A DNA stretch of 35,105 bases, taken from positions 1-35,105 of the forward strand of contig JAEEJN010000039.1 in assembly GCA_016281935.1 (NCBI GenBank), given 5' to 3'. Both the position numbers and the translations under genes were made by a program. Below, in pieces: positions 13,249-26,641 of this stretch (the stretch's first letter is position 1; every line of letters starts with the position of its first letter). The notes under the pieces are model-generated. The model searched no databases. It had not been told where the DNA came from and worked only from the letters and a program-made list of their open reading frames with translations. This DNA comes from Bacillota bacterium (GTDB lineage Bacteria; Bacillota; Clostridia; Christensenellales; UMGS416).

Positions 13249-13277
13249 TTGACGGACAGTATGCTTTCTGCTATTCT
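13249..13277 (+). promoter_or_regulatory. promoter of DUF3842 and probably the lar module
   Basis: TTGACG (13249-13254), 17-bp spacer, TATTCT (13272-13277). It is divergent from the tRNA promoter and 30 bases upstream of the DUF3842 start. No comparably good promoter was found between DUF3842 and larB. Confidence 0.75.
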
Positions 13278-13307
13278 TTGCGCATAAGGACGAAATGAGG
13301 TGCGATG

Positions 13308-13730
13308 ATGAAGATACTTGTCGTGGATGCTCAAGGCGGTGGCGTGGGAAGACAGCTTATCACTGCTGTCCGGCAGGCAATCCCTGAGGCCGAGATCACA
13401 GCGGTGGGAACGAACAGCGCAGCGACGACCGCGATGCTCAAAGCCGGAGCGGATTCTGCGGCTACGGGTGAGAATGCACTGATCGTGAATGCGCGAAGGA
13501 CCGATCTCATCGTGGGGCCCATAGGCATCGTTATAGCCGATTCCATGCTGGGAGAGATCACGCCTGCTATGGCAACGGCTGTGGCTCAGAGCTCTGCTAA
13601 ACGCATTCTGATTCCCTTTACTCATTGTGACAATATCCTGGTCGGAGTACAGGACTATTCGATCGGACGTCTGATCGCATGTGCGGTTGAAGAAGTCAAA
13701 AAGGAAGCAGCGGCTTCTGAAAAGAACTGA
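13308..13730 (+). CDS. DUF3842 family protein
   Basis: 140 residues, a small alpha/beta protein. It begins MKILVVDAQGGGVGRQL, a strand and Gly-rich loop resembling a nucleotide-binding turn, followed by a GTNSAATTAMLKAGAD segment, ending NILVGVQDYSIGRLI. This is the pattern of DUF3842, which has no assigned function. Two ATG codons are adjacent; GAGG sits 7 bases before the second (13308) and only 4 before the first (13305), so the second is used. It is the first gene after the promoter at 13249 and is followed by a leader with terminator and then larB. Membership in the nickel-cofactor module is possible but unproven. Confidence 0.85.
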   Translation: MKILVVDAQGGGVGRQLITAVRQAIPEAEITAVGTNSAATTAMLKAGADSAATGENALIVNARRTDLIVGPIGIVIADSMLGEITPAMATAVAQSSAKRILIPFTHCDNILVGVQDYSIGRLIACAVEEVKKEAAASEKN

Positions 13731-13948
13731 CTGGCAGGTACTATCGATATCCGTACGTAGGAAACGGACGGAAAACACAGAAGCGCAGCACCTGGGATCA
13801 CATAAAACATGTGTACAGGGAAGGTACGCAGTTTCCGGAAGGAAAACGCATACCTTTCTTTTTTTGATCCGGGGCTCCGGGATGCTTTTGTATATTTGTG
13901 CATTGCGTTCATGCCGTAAATCATGTAGGATACACAAGGAGGGAAAAG
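13731..13948 (+). promoter_or_regulatory. structured leader upstream of larB, possible attenuator or riboswitch
   Basis: A 218-base non-coding stretch. A hairpin CACAT/ATGTG (13799-13813) is embedded in a CCTG/CAGG stem. GAACTG at 13725-13730 could pair with CAGTTT at 13829-13834, which is part of the 5' arm of the terminator at 13821. GGAAAC near 13760 could also pair with GTTTCC in the same arm. Such competing pairings are what an attenuator or riboswitch would need. I do not recognise a known aptamer class. The simpler alternative is a plain terminator after DUF3842. Confidence 0.4.
13821..13866 (+). terminator. intrinsic terminator between DUF3842 and larB
   Basis: A long imperfect stem (arms 13821-13836 and 13841-13856, 13 of 16 positions paired) with a GGAA tetraloop, followed by a T-rich run to about 13865. 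It lies 90 bases past the DUF3842 stop and 82 before larB, with no good promoter after it, so readthrough or regulated antitermination is expected. Confidence 0.8.
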
Positions 13949-14704
13949 ATGGAAAATGAACTGAGAGAACTGCTGGAATCTGTTCGGTCCGGAAGGCTTT
14001 CCGTAGAGGAAGCTCTGTCCGAATGGAATAAACAAAGCTATGAAGATATCGGTTATGCCAAGGTGGATCTGGGACGGCAAAAACGTCAGGGCGTTTCCGA
14101 AGTGATTTATGGTGCCGGTAAGACAGGAGATCAGATCTGTGGTATCGCGAAGACTCTGGCTGAAAGGGGACAGACTCCTGTCGTGATAACCCGGATGAGT
14201 GAAGACAAAGCGGCAATGGTGGGGGATGTTCTTCCGTTGCGGTATGATCCGATTTCCCATTGCGGAATCATCGGAGAAATGCCGATACCCTCCGGGATCG
14301 GCTGCATTGCAGTTGCATGTGCAGGTACCAGTGATCTCCCTGTCGCGGAAGAAGCGGCACTGTGCGCGGAGGTTTTCGGAAACGAGGTCATACGGTTGTA
14401 TGACGTTGGTGTCATCGGGCTGGACAGGCTTCTGAGCCATTTGGATGAATTAAGATCCGCTTCTGTTGTGATCGCAGTGGCGGGCATGAATGGTACCCTT
14501 CCCACAGTTATCGGCGGACTTGTATCCTGTCCTGTCATCGCTGTACCTACGAGCGTAGGTTATGGTACGTCTTTCGGCGGCGTGACCGCCCTGTTATCTA
14601 TGCTGAATACTGCCGCGAGCGGTGTCACCGTCGTCAATATCGACAATGGTTTCGGTGCGGCTTACTCAGCCAGTCTGATCAATCACATGGAGGTTGGAAA
14701 ATGA
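13949..14704 (+). CDS. larB: LarB, pyridinium-3,5-biscarboxylic acid mononucleotide synthase
   Basis: 251 residues. LarB carboxylates and hydrolyses nicotinic acid adenine dinucleotide to make the first intermediate of the nickel-pincer nucleotide cofactor (known for the family). The N-terminal helical part (LLESVRSGRLSVEEAL) leads to a PurE-like C-terminal domain with VIYGAGKT, a VACAGTSDLPVAEEAA segment like the PurE active-site loop, and the C-terminal PTSVGYGTSFGG motif. The frame stays open to 13898, but AGGAGG lies 6 bases before the ATG at 13949. Its stop overlaps the larC start (ATGA), so the two are translationally coupled. Confidence 0.93.
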   Translation: MENELRELLESVRSGRLSVEEALSEWNKQSYEDIGYAKVDLGRQKRQGVSEVIYGAGKTGDQICGIAKTLAERGQTPVVITRMSEDKAAMVGDVLPLRYDPISHCGIIGEMPIPSGIGCIAVACAGTSDLPVAEEAALCAEVFGNEVIRLYDVGVIGLDRLLSHLDELRSASVVIAVAGMNGTLPTVIGGLVSCPVIAVPTSVGYGTSFGGVTALLSMLNTAASGVTVVNIDNGFGAAYSASLINHMEVGK

Positions 14705-15972
14705 AAATCCTTTATCTGGATTGCGGCATGGGCGCTGCCGGTGACATGCTGACGGCCGCTCTTCTCGAACTGTTTCCGAATAAAGAGGAAATGGTTGAAA
14801 AACTGAACGCTCTGGACATTCCTGGTGTAACGTTCAATGCCGATCCGTCGGTCAAATGCGGCATCACAGGGACACATATGACGGTCCTCGTAAATGGTGA
14901 GGAAGAACATGAGTTCATGCATCATCATCACCATGATCACGAGCATGATCATGAACATGAGCACGAGCATGATCACGAGCACGAGCATAATCATGATCAC
15001 GAGCATGAGCATAATCACCATGGTCATGAACACAGTCACAGTGGAATGCATGACATCGAGCATATCGTCCGGGGACATATGCGGCTTCCTGAAGAAGTGC
15101 AGAAGGATGTCATGGCAGTGTATGGACTCATTGCAGAGGCGGAAAGCCATGCGCACGGTGTACCTGTGACAGAAATCCACTTCCATGAAGTGGGGACGAT
15201 GGATGCGGTTGCTGATATTGCAGCAGTCTGTCTGCTTCTTCACGAACTTGCTCCTGATCGGATTGCGGCATCTCCGGTACATGTCGGCTCAGGACACGTA
15301 CATTGTGCACACGGGATTCTTCCTGTGCCAGCACCTGCAACAGCCTACATCCTGCGGGATGTTCCGATCTATGGGGGAGCAGTCAAGGGCGAACTTTGCA
15401 CACCTACAGGTGCAGCTCTGCTGAAACATTTTGTGACGGAATTCGGAGATATGCCTGTCATGAAAACGGAATCCATCGGATATGGCATGGGCAAGAAAGA
15501 CTTCGAACAGGCGAACTGCGTGCGTGCTCTTCTGGGTGAGACTGAAGGGGCGACCGAAACAATCTGTGAACTCAACTGCAATGTGGATGATATGACCGGC
15601 GAAGCGCTTGGCTTTGCCATGGACCGCCTGTTGGAAGCAGGAGCCAGAGAAGTGTTCACAGTACCTGTAGGCATGAAAAAATCAAGGCCCGGCATCCTCC
15701 TGAAAGTGATCTGCACACAGGATGTAAAAGCCAGAATGGTCGAGATGATGTTTGCCCATACAACGACTCTCGGAATCAGAGAATCCGAGATGCGCCGGTA
15801 TACACTGGACCGCCGTTTTGAAACGGTGCAGACAGCCTGGGGCCCTGTCAGCCGGAAAGTCTCCGAAGGCTATGGTGTTAAGCGGGCAAAATATGAATAC
15901 GAAGATCTGGCCCGGATCGCAAAAATACATAGCATGAGTCTGGAAGAACTGTTGGAAAAACTCAAAGGCTGA
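14701..15972 (+). CDS. larC: LarC, nickel-pincer cofactor nickel insertase, single frame
   Basis: 423 residues. LarC uses CTP to insert nickel into the pincer nucleotide, the last step of cofactor assembly (known for the family). It begins with the typical LYLDCGMGAAGDMLTAAL. Residues 70-117 hold 25 His, mostly alternating with Glu, Asp or Asn, a likely nickel store or delivery segment. The region after it has ESHAHGVPVTEIHFHEVGTMDAVADI, then LCTPTGAALL. The C-terminal ferredoxin-like domain starts at about residue 280 (ELNCNVDDMTGEALG). In Lactiplantibacillus plantarum the gene is split by a programmed frameshift (larC1/larC2); here it is one uninterrupted frame. larE and larA are not in this window. 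Confidence 0.95.
   Translation: MKILYLDCGMGAAGDMLTAALLELFPNKEEMVEKLNALDIPGVTFNADPSVKCGITGTHMTVLVNGEEEHEFMHHHHHDHEHDHEHEHEHDHEHEHNHDHEHEHNHHGHEHSHSGMHDIEHIVRGHMRLPEEVQKDVMAVYGLIAEAESHAHGVPVTEIHFHEVGTMDAVADIAAVCLLLHELAPDRIAASPVHVGSGHVHCAHGILPVPAPATAYILRDVPIYGGAVKGELCTPTGAALLKHFVTEFGDMPVMKTESIGYGMGKKDFEQANCVRALLGETEGATETICELNCNVDDMTGEALGFAMDRLLEAGAREVFTVPVGMKKSRPGILLKVICTQDVKARMVEMMFAHTTTLGIRESEMRRYTLDRRFETVQTAWGPVSRKVSEGYGVKRAKYEYEDLARIAKIHSMSLEELLEKLKG
14908..15051 (+). repeat. low-complexity His-codon repeat inside larC
   Basis: Tandem, slightly varied units of CAC/CAT with GAG/GAT/AAT codons encode the alternating His/Asp/Glu/Asn stretch. This kind of sequence is prone to slippage, so its length may differ among strains. 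It is coding and not a CRISPR array. Confidence 0.85.
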
Positions 15973-15990: not shown

Positions 15991-17547
15991 ATGGGAAATG
16001 AGCTGAAGAAAGCGCTCCTTTCCAAACTGTGGGAAGCACTTCTTTCCGTACTTCCCGTAGCTGGAATCGTTCTTCTTGTTTCATTCACGCCGGCGGCCCC
16101 GCTGACATGGAGGGAACGGGGAGTATTTGCCGTGAGCTCTCTTCTTCTGGTCGCCGGGATCGGGCTGTTCAATCTCGGCGCAGATCTGGCCATGACTCCT
16201 ATGGGACGCCATGTGGGCGAAGGCTTGACTCGGTCAAGAAAGCTTGGTCTGCTCATTACCGCCTGCTTTTTCCTGGGAGTTCTCATCACTGTTGCGGAAC
16301 CTGATCTTTCCGTTCTGGCGGGTCAGGTCGAAGCGGTTATCAATCCGACTCTTCTTATTGTGACAGTGGGAGTTGGCGTAGGCCTGTTCCTTGTTCTTTC
16401 TGTCGTTCGCATGGTGACAAAAACGGATTTGACGGCTCTGCTGCTGTTTTTCTACATGCTTTTGTTTGCATTTTCCGCTTTGCTGATCGCATCTGGGAAA
16501 ACATCTTTCCTGCCGCTGTCTTTCGATTCGGGCGGCGTGACCACAGGACCCATCACAGTACCGTTCATCATGGCTCTCGGACTTGGTATCGCAAAGATGC
16601 TGGGCGGAAGAAACGTGGGAGAGAACAGTTTCGGTCTCATTGCACTCTGCTCTGTCGGCCCTGTGCTCGCAGTCCTGCTTTTGTCTGTTTTTTTCGGAAA
16701 CGGTGAAATTGTATGGGAGATCCCCGATTACTCGATCCCTGGAAACCTGGGTTCTTCAGTGCTGAGGCTTTTCGGTGAAACGGCTTGGGATGTGGTCAAA
16801 TCTCTTTTGCTCATGACGACCTTTTTCCTGATCCTTCAGTTCGCCGTTCTGCGTCTTCCAGGACGCAGGCTTCTTCAGATCGGCTCCGGACTGGGATTTG
16901 CCTTTATCGGACTCGTCATCTTCCTTGTGTCTGTATCTGTCGGTTTTATGCCGGTCGGATACAGCCTTGGACGATCTATAACGGGTTTTAGTGACAAAGC
17001 CATGCTGGCTTTTGCCTTTGTCATCGGTATGGTCGTCGTGCTTGCAGAGCCGGCGGTCCATGTCCTGAACCGCCAGGTAGAAGATGTCACAGGCGGGACC
17101 GTGACAAAACGTCAGATGACCATAGCACTGTCCGTTGGTGTCGGCGTTTCGATCGGACTCTCTATACTTCGTCTGATTGTCGGCTTTTCGCTTCTGTATT
17201 ATCTGATCCCGGGTTACCTTCTGAGTCTGGGCCTGTCCTTCTTTGTTCCGAAGATCTATACGGCAATTGCTTTTGACTCAGGCGGAGTTGCCAGCGGGCC
17301 GCTGACGAGCTCATTTATCCTGCCTATGGCCATAGGAGCATGTGTTTCTCTCCGAGGGGCGGATGCTGTGATGGATTTTGCTTTCGGCGTGGTGGCTCTG
17401 GTAGCAATGACACCTCTTATCACGATTCAAAGCCTCGGTTTCCGAGCTGTTGTATCACGAGAAGTGAAAGCGGAAGTCAAACTGCGCAGGATGCTCTCTT
17501 CAGATGATGCGCAGATCATCAGGTTTGAATGGAAGGAGGGAAAGTGA
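15991..17547 (+). CDS. DUF1538 membrane protein with two repeats
   Basis: 518 residues with roughly 12-14 hydrophobic helices. It is an internal duplication: AEPDLSVLAGQVE (near residue 102) recurs as AEPAVHVLNRQVE (near residue 352), and DSGGVTTGPIT (near 179) recurs as DSGGVASGPLT (near 430). This is the two-DUF1538 architecture. The half-repeats with polar motifs inside membrane segments suggest a transporter with an inverted-repeat fold; the substrate is unknown. It starts 18 bases after larC, with AAAGGAA upstream, and is followed immediately by two P-II genes. A P-II-gated channel or transporter is the natural reading, by analogy with AmtB-GlnK. Confidence 0.88.
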   Translation: MGNELKKALLSKLWEALLSVLPVAGIVLLVSFTPAAPLTWRERGVFAVSSLLLVAGIGLFNLGADLAMTPMGRHVGEGLTRSRKLGLLITACFFLGVLITVAEPDLSVLAGQVEAVINPTLLIVTVGVGVGLFLVLSVVRMVTKTDLTALLLFFYMLLFAFSALLIASGKTSFLPLSFDSGGVTTGPITVPFIMALGLGIAKMLGGRNVGENSFGLIALCSVGPVLAVLLLSVFFGNGEIVWEIPDYSIPGNLGSSVLRLFGETAWDVVKSLLLMTTFFLILQFAVLRLPGRRLLQIGSGLGFAFIGLVIFLVSVSVGFMPVGYSLGRSITGFSDKAMLAFAFVIGMVVVLAEPAVHVLNRQVEDVTGGTVTKRQMTIALSVGVGVSIGLSILRLIVGFSLLYYLIPGYLLSLGLSFFVPKIYTAIAFDSGGVASGPLTSSFILPMAIGACVSLRGADAVMDFAFGVVALVAMTPLITIQSLGFRAVVSREVKAEVKLRRMLSSDDAQIIRFEWKEGK

Positions 17548-17925
17548 GTGGCTGAGAAGAGTAATCTTGCGCCGAATCGGCTTGTGATCCTGGTTACTGT
17601 CGTCAATAAAGGCAAAGGCACTTTTTTTGCTGATCTCCTGCAGAATTATGATGTGAATCTGCAGATGAGCTTTGTGGGAACGGGTACGGCTCATCGGAAT
17701 CTGATTGAATTCCTCGGACTCAAGGACAGCCGCAGAAGCGTGATTTTCTCCGTGCTGCGTGCAGAGAAAGTGGATACTGTTCTTGCTGCGCTGGAAGAAC
17801 GCTTCCAGACGGTCAATTCCGGAACGGGGATCGCGTTTACACTGCCGATGAGCAGCATGATCGGCAGAACAGCTTACGGTTTTCTTAGTAATGAGCGGAG
17901 GCTCGTTGGGGAGGATGAAGGATGA
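17548..17925 (+). CDS. P-II family signal-transduction protein (first copy)
   Basis: 125 residues, GTG start directly after the DUF1538 stop, with GGAGGG upstream. The ferredoxin-like P-II fold is visible: a VILVTVVNKGKGTFFADLL strand-helix, a GTGTAHRNLIEFLGL segment at the T-loop position, RSVIFSVLRAEKVDTVLAAL, and the C-terminal GTGIAFTLPMSSMIG strand and C-loop. The T-loop differs from classical GlnB: the uridylylated Tyr motif (GAEY) is not seen. It probably senses a small nucleotide-type ligand and controls the adjacent membrane protein; both statements come from family knowledge and context. Confidence 0.85.
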   Translation: MAEKSNLAPNRLVILVTVVNKGKGTFFADLLQNYDVNLQMSFVGTGTAHRNLIEFLGLKDSRRSVIFSVLRAEKVDTVLAALEERFQTVNSGTGIAFTLPMSSMIGRTAYGFLSNERRLVGEDEG

Positions 17926-18254
17926 CGGACAAGAGATATGAGGCGATCTTCTGCATCGTAAATGAAGGCAGGTCCGAAATCGTCATGGATGCCGCATGGA
18001 AAGCGGGAGCCGGCGGAGGAACTGTCCTCAACGGAAGAGGAACAGCCCGCCGTGAAGCGGAGGAGATGTTCAACATCCGTATCCAGCCGGAGAAGGAACT
18101 CGTCATGATCCTGGTGCCGGAAGAGATCAGGGATAAAGTGCTCCAGGCGCTGTATGATACAGCCGGCCTTGATACGGAAAGCATGGGCATTGCATTTTCG
18201 CTTCCTGTAGAGCGCGTGATCGGCCTTGATCGTCAGAAGAAAGAGGCTGACTGA
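17922..18254 (+). CDS. P-II family signal-transduction protein (second copy)
   Basis: 110 residues, overlapping the first P-II gene by 4 bases (ATGA). It has YEAIFCIVNEGRSEIVMDAAWKAG, then GAGGGTVLNGRG, which is close to the classical P-II GA-GGT-RG segment, then a short T-loop (TARREAEEMFNI), then EKELVMILVPEEIRDKVLQAL and GIAFSLPVERVIG. It is shorter and more GlnB-like than the first copy, so the pair are diverged paralogues and may form mixed trimers or sense different ligands. Last gene of the DUF1538 unit. Confidence 0.88.
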   Translation: MTDKRYEAIFCIVNEGRSEIVMDAAWKAGAGGGTVLNGRGTARREAEEMFNIRIQPEKELVMILVPEEIRDKVLQALYDTAGLDTESMGIAFSLPVERVIGLDRQKKEAD

Positions 18255-18271: not shown

Positions 18272-18305
18272 ATAGCCAGTGCGGCACTTAGGCTGCACTG
18301 GCTAT
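18272..18305. terminator. hairpin between convergent P-II and E2-like genes
   Basis: A perfect 11-bp stem (18272-18282 with 18295-18305) and a 12-base loop. No long U-run on either side. Position between convergent genes supports a bidirectional terminator. Confidence 0.7.
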
Positions 18306-26444: not shown

Positions 26445-26641
26445 GTACCCTTCGGGGCACCCATGCCGCGGCTTCGCCGAGCGTGTCCCGGGATTACAGT
26501 CCGTACAGAACGCGGGCCCTGTGCAACGGTCCGCCGTGAACCATGTCAGGGCCGGAAGGCAGCAGCATTCAGCGGAATGGCATCGTGTGCCGCAGGTTCA
26601 CCTGCGCAATGTTCGGGCTCCCGGGAGACTACGGCGGTTTT
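26445..26641 (+). ncRNA. ffs: signal recognition particle RNA (Firmicutes type)
   Basis: The RNA component that binds Ffh for co-translational protein export. The universal helix 8 is clear at 26542-26567: ATG and CAT arms, then TCAGG opposite AGCAG as the symmetric loop, GCC/GGC and the GGAA tetraloop. Around it, helix 5 can form (TGTGCA 26520-26525 with TGCGCA 26603-26608, and the CCCGGGA arms near 26487 and 26620). Upstream of helix 5, TTCG-capped hairpins (about 26448-26457 and 26469-26479) look like an Alu-type domain. The 5' end is set by the promoter; the 3' end near a short T-run at 26638-26641 is an estimate. Confidence 0.88.

Follow-up and report, generated by a model that had tools for sequence, protein, structure and literature searches.

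A probable transcription attenuator between DUF3842 and larB and its family of Clostridia leaders before genes linked to nickel-pincer-nucleotide supply

The window, the whole 35,105-nucleotide stretch of a Bacillota bacterium genome that was analysed, carries a DUF3842 gene followed, across an intergenic gap, by larB and larC (Table 1). Downstream of larC, positions 15991-18254 encode a protein with DUF1538 in duplicate, similar to the UmpAB antiporter, and two small proteins, of which the second is P-II-like. These genes probably belong to the same operon as larB-larC, and a terminator-like hairpin comes next (18272-18305). Elsewhere in the window there is a bacterial small SRP RNA (26510-26610, 62.9 bits). 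This draft genome is 88% complete; no larE in it scores above the curated cut-off (best 44.6 bits against a cut-off of 150), and Lar_N gives only partial matches (41.8 and 26.9 bits), larB and larC both being present. The promoter-like site upstream of DUF3842 is a possible start for one DUF3842-leader-lar transcript. A second, weak site overlaps the 3' end of the DUF3842 gene, and a consensus scan finds no strong promoter 5' of the leader in the window.

Table 1. Features of the DUF3842-larB locus, in window coordinates.
Feature	Position	Strand	Basis or remarks
Promoter-like site for DUF3842, TTGACG-17-TATTCT	13249..13277	+	9/12 consensus
DUF3842 gene	13305..13730	+	141 aa; PF12953, E 2.8e-50
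Weak promoter-like site 5' of leader, CTGAAA-16-TACTAT	13717..13744	+	8/12, consensus match only
H1 hairpin, CCGTaCGT-AGGAA-ACGgACGG	13751..13771	+	pentaloop AGGAA, one A.G mismatch
Degraded H2, loop C-AGAA-G at the family position, without continuous stem	13778..13783	+	sequence compared with L054, L124, L222 and others
Attenuator core, R3 match	13809..13862	+	39.5 bits, E 6.1e-6
Antiterminator hairpin, GUGUAC-AGGGAAG-GUACGC	13811..13829 (13811-13816 with 13824-13829)	+	covariation; -7.4 kcal/mol; leave-one-out match
Intrinsic terminator	13821..13866 (13818..13866 in the fold scan)	+	fold scan: -18.9 kcal/mol, z -3.25
Terminator lower stem	13822-13829 with 13848-13855	+	fold and covariance model
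Terminator apical hairpin, C-GGAA-G	13832-13845	+	fold
Terminator U-run	13855-13865	+	sequence
larB	13949..14704	+	first gene 3' of attenuator
larC, nickel insertion protein	14701..15972	+	PF01969, E 7.5e-138

The preliminary description had held that the gap is structured, that it contains a strong terminator with no good promoter after it, and that it matches no known aptamer class, and in all of this it was borne out. The DUF3842-larB stretch as a whole folds better than its shuffles (z -3.0), a stable intrinsic terminator lies 5' of the first regulated gene as in an attenuator, and Rfam matches no known RNA element in the gap. No good promoter is seen between the terminator and larB, since the top sigma-70 match in a consensus scan reaches only 7/12. 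The same description had named GAACTG (13725-13730) and GGAAAC (13760-13765) as the segments of an antiterminator. Both are able to pair with the upper 5' arm of the terminator, at a frequency expected by chance (2 six-nucleotide complementarities observed against 2.15 in shuffles), and GGAAAC belongs to a separate conserved hairpin at 13751-13771.

The closest larB relatives are only ~60-65% identical, and a leader sought directly 5' of larB in them met larE in most cases, rather than DUF3842; the leader therefore sits before larE or further up. At two loci (L068 and L124) DUF3842 precedes larE-larB-larC, and there too a terminator closes the gap, directly against the start site. Leaders before larE carry repeated small hairpins, and a motif scan found pairs of these directly 3' of DUF3842 and 5' of other genes. 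A covariance model of the attenuator core built from 8 sequences (R1) recovered further leaders (L107 at 62 bits, L023, L068, L022, L027, L030 and others); the R2 model comprised 19 sequences and the R3 model 35 leaders, with the window left out. R3 has a single significant match within the window, at the core (E 6.1e-6, on covariance-model E-values that are rough), which makes the window a member of the family. Rfam holds no family for the leaders at gathering scores, and relaxed E-values gave nothing convincing at them. R2 matches with E of ~4e-4 to 0.007 in five DUF3842-negative genomes (G051, G090, G099, G337 and G236) were rejected, those inspected having the look of plain terminators or coding sequence.

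Across the family the terminator helix is paired in 97-98% of cells, with double or compensatory changes in 10 of its 12 pairs and slid versions far behind. Its 5' arm doubles as the 3' arm of an upstream hairpin, for which the family form is GUAUAC paired with GGUAUGC, so that the two helices are mutually exclusive. This antiterminator helix, left unpaired in the covariance model, pairs in 89-92% of cells in the family leaders, and its covariation score of 0.438-0.465 compares with 0.293 in shuffles, of which 0/500 reach it; slid versions score far lower. On two stricter measures, the pair counts and the pair-type counts, it does no better than the shuffles when the larger set is used, and the support for the antiterminator is hence good yet less complete than that for the terminator. 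Of the two folds in the window, the terminator is by a clear margin the more stable, so termination is the expected default. The covariance search of homologous leaders suggested earlier as a check thus finds covariation in both exclusive helices, and the window is found by a model from which it was left out; the proposed attenuator layout stands, with a different antiterminator from the two segments first named. We regard it as very likely that the DUF3842-larB gap contains an attenuator.

Upstream of the core the leaders carry small hairpins of one kind. A count over the 160 nt 5' of each of 37 leader cores gives 50 hairpins whose loop of 4-5 nt ends in GAA, against 3.1 +/- 1.8 in shuffles. 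At least one is present in 32 of the 37 leaders and two are present in 18, and of 66 small loops closed by C-G, 42 end in GAA. The loops AGGAA, ACGAA or AGAA, closed by C-G, are repeated in the leaders before larE, and the GAA motif recurs in the antiterminator loop and in the apical loop of the terminator. This part of the leader is eroded in the window, where the strict count of such hairpins is 0. H1 is counted there if one mismatch is allowed, with only three pairs beside its loop, and a hairpin like it (again with one mismatch) occurs in 0.03-0.2% of shuffles. CsrA sites were rejected as a general account of the loops, because GGA is restricted to the AGGAA type and is absent from ACGAA and AGAA.

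A second terminator-like hairpin (approximately GCGGUUyUGyC...GrCArAaCCGC with a U-run) was seen at L049, L060, L077, L078, L084, L110, L140, L142 and L144. It is placed between a gene whose product carries MTLLTTVFAA and, 16-80 nt further on, larB or larE, with little or no room for a promoter. The copies before larB in L049, L060, L077 and others were considered as the same element as the leader and rejected; they are a separate feature, as they have no GAA loops and are located after membrane-protein genes.

The genes 3' of the leaders recur from locus to locus. They are larE-larB-larC (L068 and L124), the same genes, optionally joined by a pair of small membrane proteins (L003, L021/L204, L107 and L235), a Nik/Opp-type ABC operon (L275) or a FecCD ABC operon (L205) followed by larE-larB-larC, larE-larB-larC-CbiM-CbiQ-CbiO-DUF3842 (L206), larC alone or after these membrane proteins (L228 and L231), and substrate-binding protein (SBP) and Nik-type permease genes (L274 and L278). 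The Nik-type proteins score below the curated equivalog cut-offs of their families, and the case for nickel as their substrate is their location within lar operons. The two small membrane proteins, found between the leader and larE, larB or larC at L003, L021, L107, L204, L226 and L235, begin MACFLVPxAEAV... (~140 aa) and MTLLTTVFAAII... (~105 aa) and have no Pfam or NCBIfam match; they are possibly parts of a nickel transporter.

A further arrangement is a cassette of DUF3842, leader and an ECF S component (PF12822), found at L020, L027, L030, L036, L242, L244 and L246-L248, mostly in genomes without larB and several times in genomes with LarA. In genomes that lack larB, the presence of LarA goes together with that of DUF3842 (odds ratio 4.3, p 1e-5); of the 13 such genomes that have a leader, 6 give a strong LarA (Lar_N) match. 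LarA without larB was rejected as the reason for all ECF-type leaders, strong Lar_N matches being present in only about half of these larB-negative leader genomes. The S component is a candidate importer of nickel-pincer nucleotide (NPN) or a precursor. Control by a metal or cofactor fits the genes common to the downstream regions, and we consider it likely that the leaders control nickel uptake and NPN supply. Comparative sequence analysis places the leader of the window in an uncatalogued family, spread over many gut Clostridia and recurring in distant ones, with two exclusive helices, repeated GAA-loop hairpins and common downstream genes.

DUF3842 is present in 135 of 391 genomes and in all 23 of those with a leader at E<1e-3 (Fisher p 6e-12), a co-occurrence partly due to construction, as the training set included leaders discovered beside DUF3842. 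Leader genomes outside model training have it in 10 of 10 cases. The leader lies at most 330 nt 3' of DUF3842 in 13 of the 23 genomes and is unlinked to it in 8. Among 52 order-level genomes that formed a second set, inspection confirmed three leaders (G017, G029 and G006), all of them in DUF3842-positive genomes; the single DUF3842-negative match at E<1e-3 there (G051) proved to be a plain terminator. A confident leader occurs in only ~23 of the 135 DUF3842 genomes, implying either divergent leaders that the model misses or other roles for DUF3842. In one genome (G112:C32:353675-353803) a DUF3842 fragment of residues 91-133 stands ~150 nt 5' of the lar leader, with a full copy on another contig; it looks like a relic of the gene-leader arrangement.

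The AlphaFold model of DUF3842 is confident (pLDDT 93.9) and Rossmann-like. Fold comparison gave generic Rossmann matches only (Z up to 9.8) and no solved relative, and the sole domain match is PF12953, with no known RNA-binding domain. The modelled fold suggests that DUF3842 is probably nucleotide-binding. Given its constant co-occurrence with the leader, a protein partner is no less likely than a riboswitch, and DUF3842 may well be the trans-acting factor of the leader. More tentatively, DUF3842 could represent an antiterminator of a new kind, in which a nucleotide-binding protein of Rossmann-like fold senses NPN, a precursor or nickel, binds the repeats of the C-(A)NGAA-G hairpin, and switches on nickel uptake, cofactor synthesis or import.

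The strongest alternative, which we think rather unlikely, is a true riboswitch in which Ni2+, Co2+, NPN or a pyridine-nucleotide precursor is the direct ligand of the GAA-loop hairpins and DUF3842 is just another protein of the pathway. A regulon of uptake and biosynthesis genes is typical of riboswitches, the loops are highly conserved, and short paired hairpins can bind a ligand, as those of guanidine-II do. However, the strongly conserved parts of the leader are only repeats of one small loop at variable spacing, which resembles a repeated protein site, and DUF3842 is found in every leader genome, even when unlinked. Guanidine-II (mini-ykkC) also has a pair of small hairpins whose short conserved loop is closed by C-G, but the loop is ACGR rather than (A)NGAA, the genes are others, and Rfam reports no such match at the leaders. 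The NiCo (czcD) riboswitch has nickel and cobalt in common with the leaders; it controls metal export, whereas the leaders precede genes for uptake and cofactor synthesis, and it too gives no Rfam match.

A terminator that is translation-linked, or partial and fixed, and that only reduces lar expression compared with that of DUF3842, independently of any signal, is improbable. Relatives do have other terminator-like hairpins inside lar operons just before larB or larE, but these have neither the GAA-loop repeats nor an overlapping antiterminator, and the leader family keeps both.

Slightly less credible still is a leader read by a known type of antiterminator protein, of the BglG/LicT or the ANTAR (EutV/NasR) class. 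In licT-RAT-bglP the regulator gene lies directly 5' of the leader and its target, and the antiterminator overlaps the terminator. The DUF3842 leaders share this order and this overlap with the BglG/LicT-SacY RAT systems, but the proteins of those systems carry a CAT-RBD where DUF3842 matches PF12953 only, the RAT is a single stem-loop rather than a series of small repeated GAA-loop hairpins, and the targets of the leaders are not sugar PTS genes. ANTAR target leaders (eutP/eutG of Enterococcus faecalis with EutV, and nasF with NasR) have two small hairpins 5' of the terminator, the second overlapping it, and work by protein antitermination (PMC3369931). The overall layout, with paired small hairpins and then an antiterminator overlapping the terminator, is thus alike (PMC3369931). 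However, the loops of ANTAR targets are hexanucleotides with A1 and G4 (PMC3369931), and the loops found here are of 4-5 nt, end in GAA and are closed by C-G; an ANTAR protein is encoded in 14 of 26 leader genomes and is absent from the other 12, several of which are 98-100% complete. Since both loops and proteins differ, the leader would work like the ANTAR and RAT systems and is not a member of either.

In the window the terminator ends ~82-83 nt before larB, further than in most lar leaders, and a weak promoter 3' of it is therefore conceivable; in the lar-type relatives the terminator directly adjoins the ribosome-binding site, leaving no room for one. That the terminator simply belongs to DUF3842, with a larB promoter in the ~82 nt downstream (where 7/12 matches occur) and an accidental alternative hairpin, is nevertheless very unlikely, given that the antiterminator covaries across genera, that the core is recovered here by a model built from other leaders only, and that the relatives have no space for such a promoter.

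Taken as a whole, the account we favour as probable is a termination/antitermination leader for nickel or NPN supply, most likely operated by DUF3842. By default the nascent RNA would fold into the terminator and transcription would stop before larB. When NPN or nickel is needed, the upstream hairpin that uses the terminator 5' arm would be held, the terminator blocked and larB-larC transcribed; we infer both this direction of response and its signal. The DUF3842 protein would act as the antiterminator by gripping the GAA-loop hairpins.

The literature searched, a limited open-access set, describes no regulator of nickel-pincer cofactor supply in Clostridia. The RNA family, the list of its target genes and the candidate regulator DUF3842 can be tested together. 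For bacteria with no larB but with LarA, the enzyme that uses the cofactor, the ECF transporter is a possible route of entry for the cofactor or a precursor. If the reading of DUF3842 is true, there would be a dedicated regulon for the nickel-pincer cofactor.
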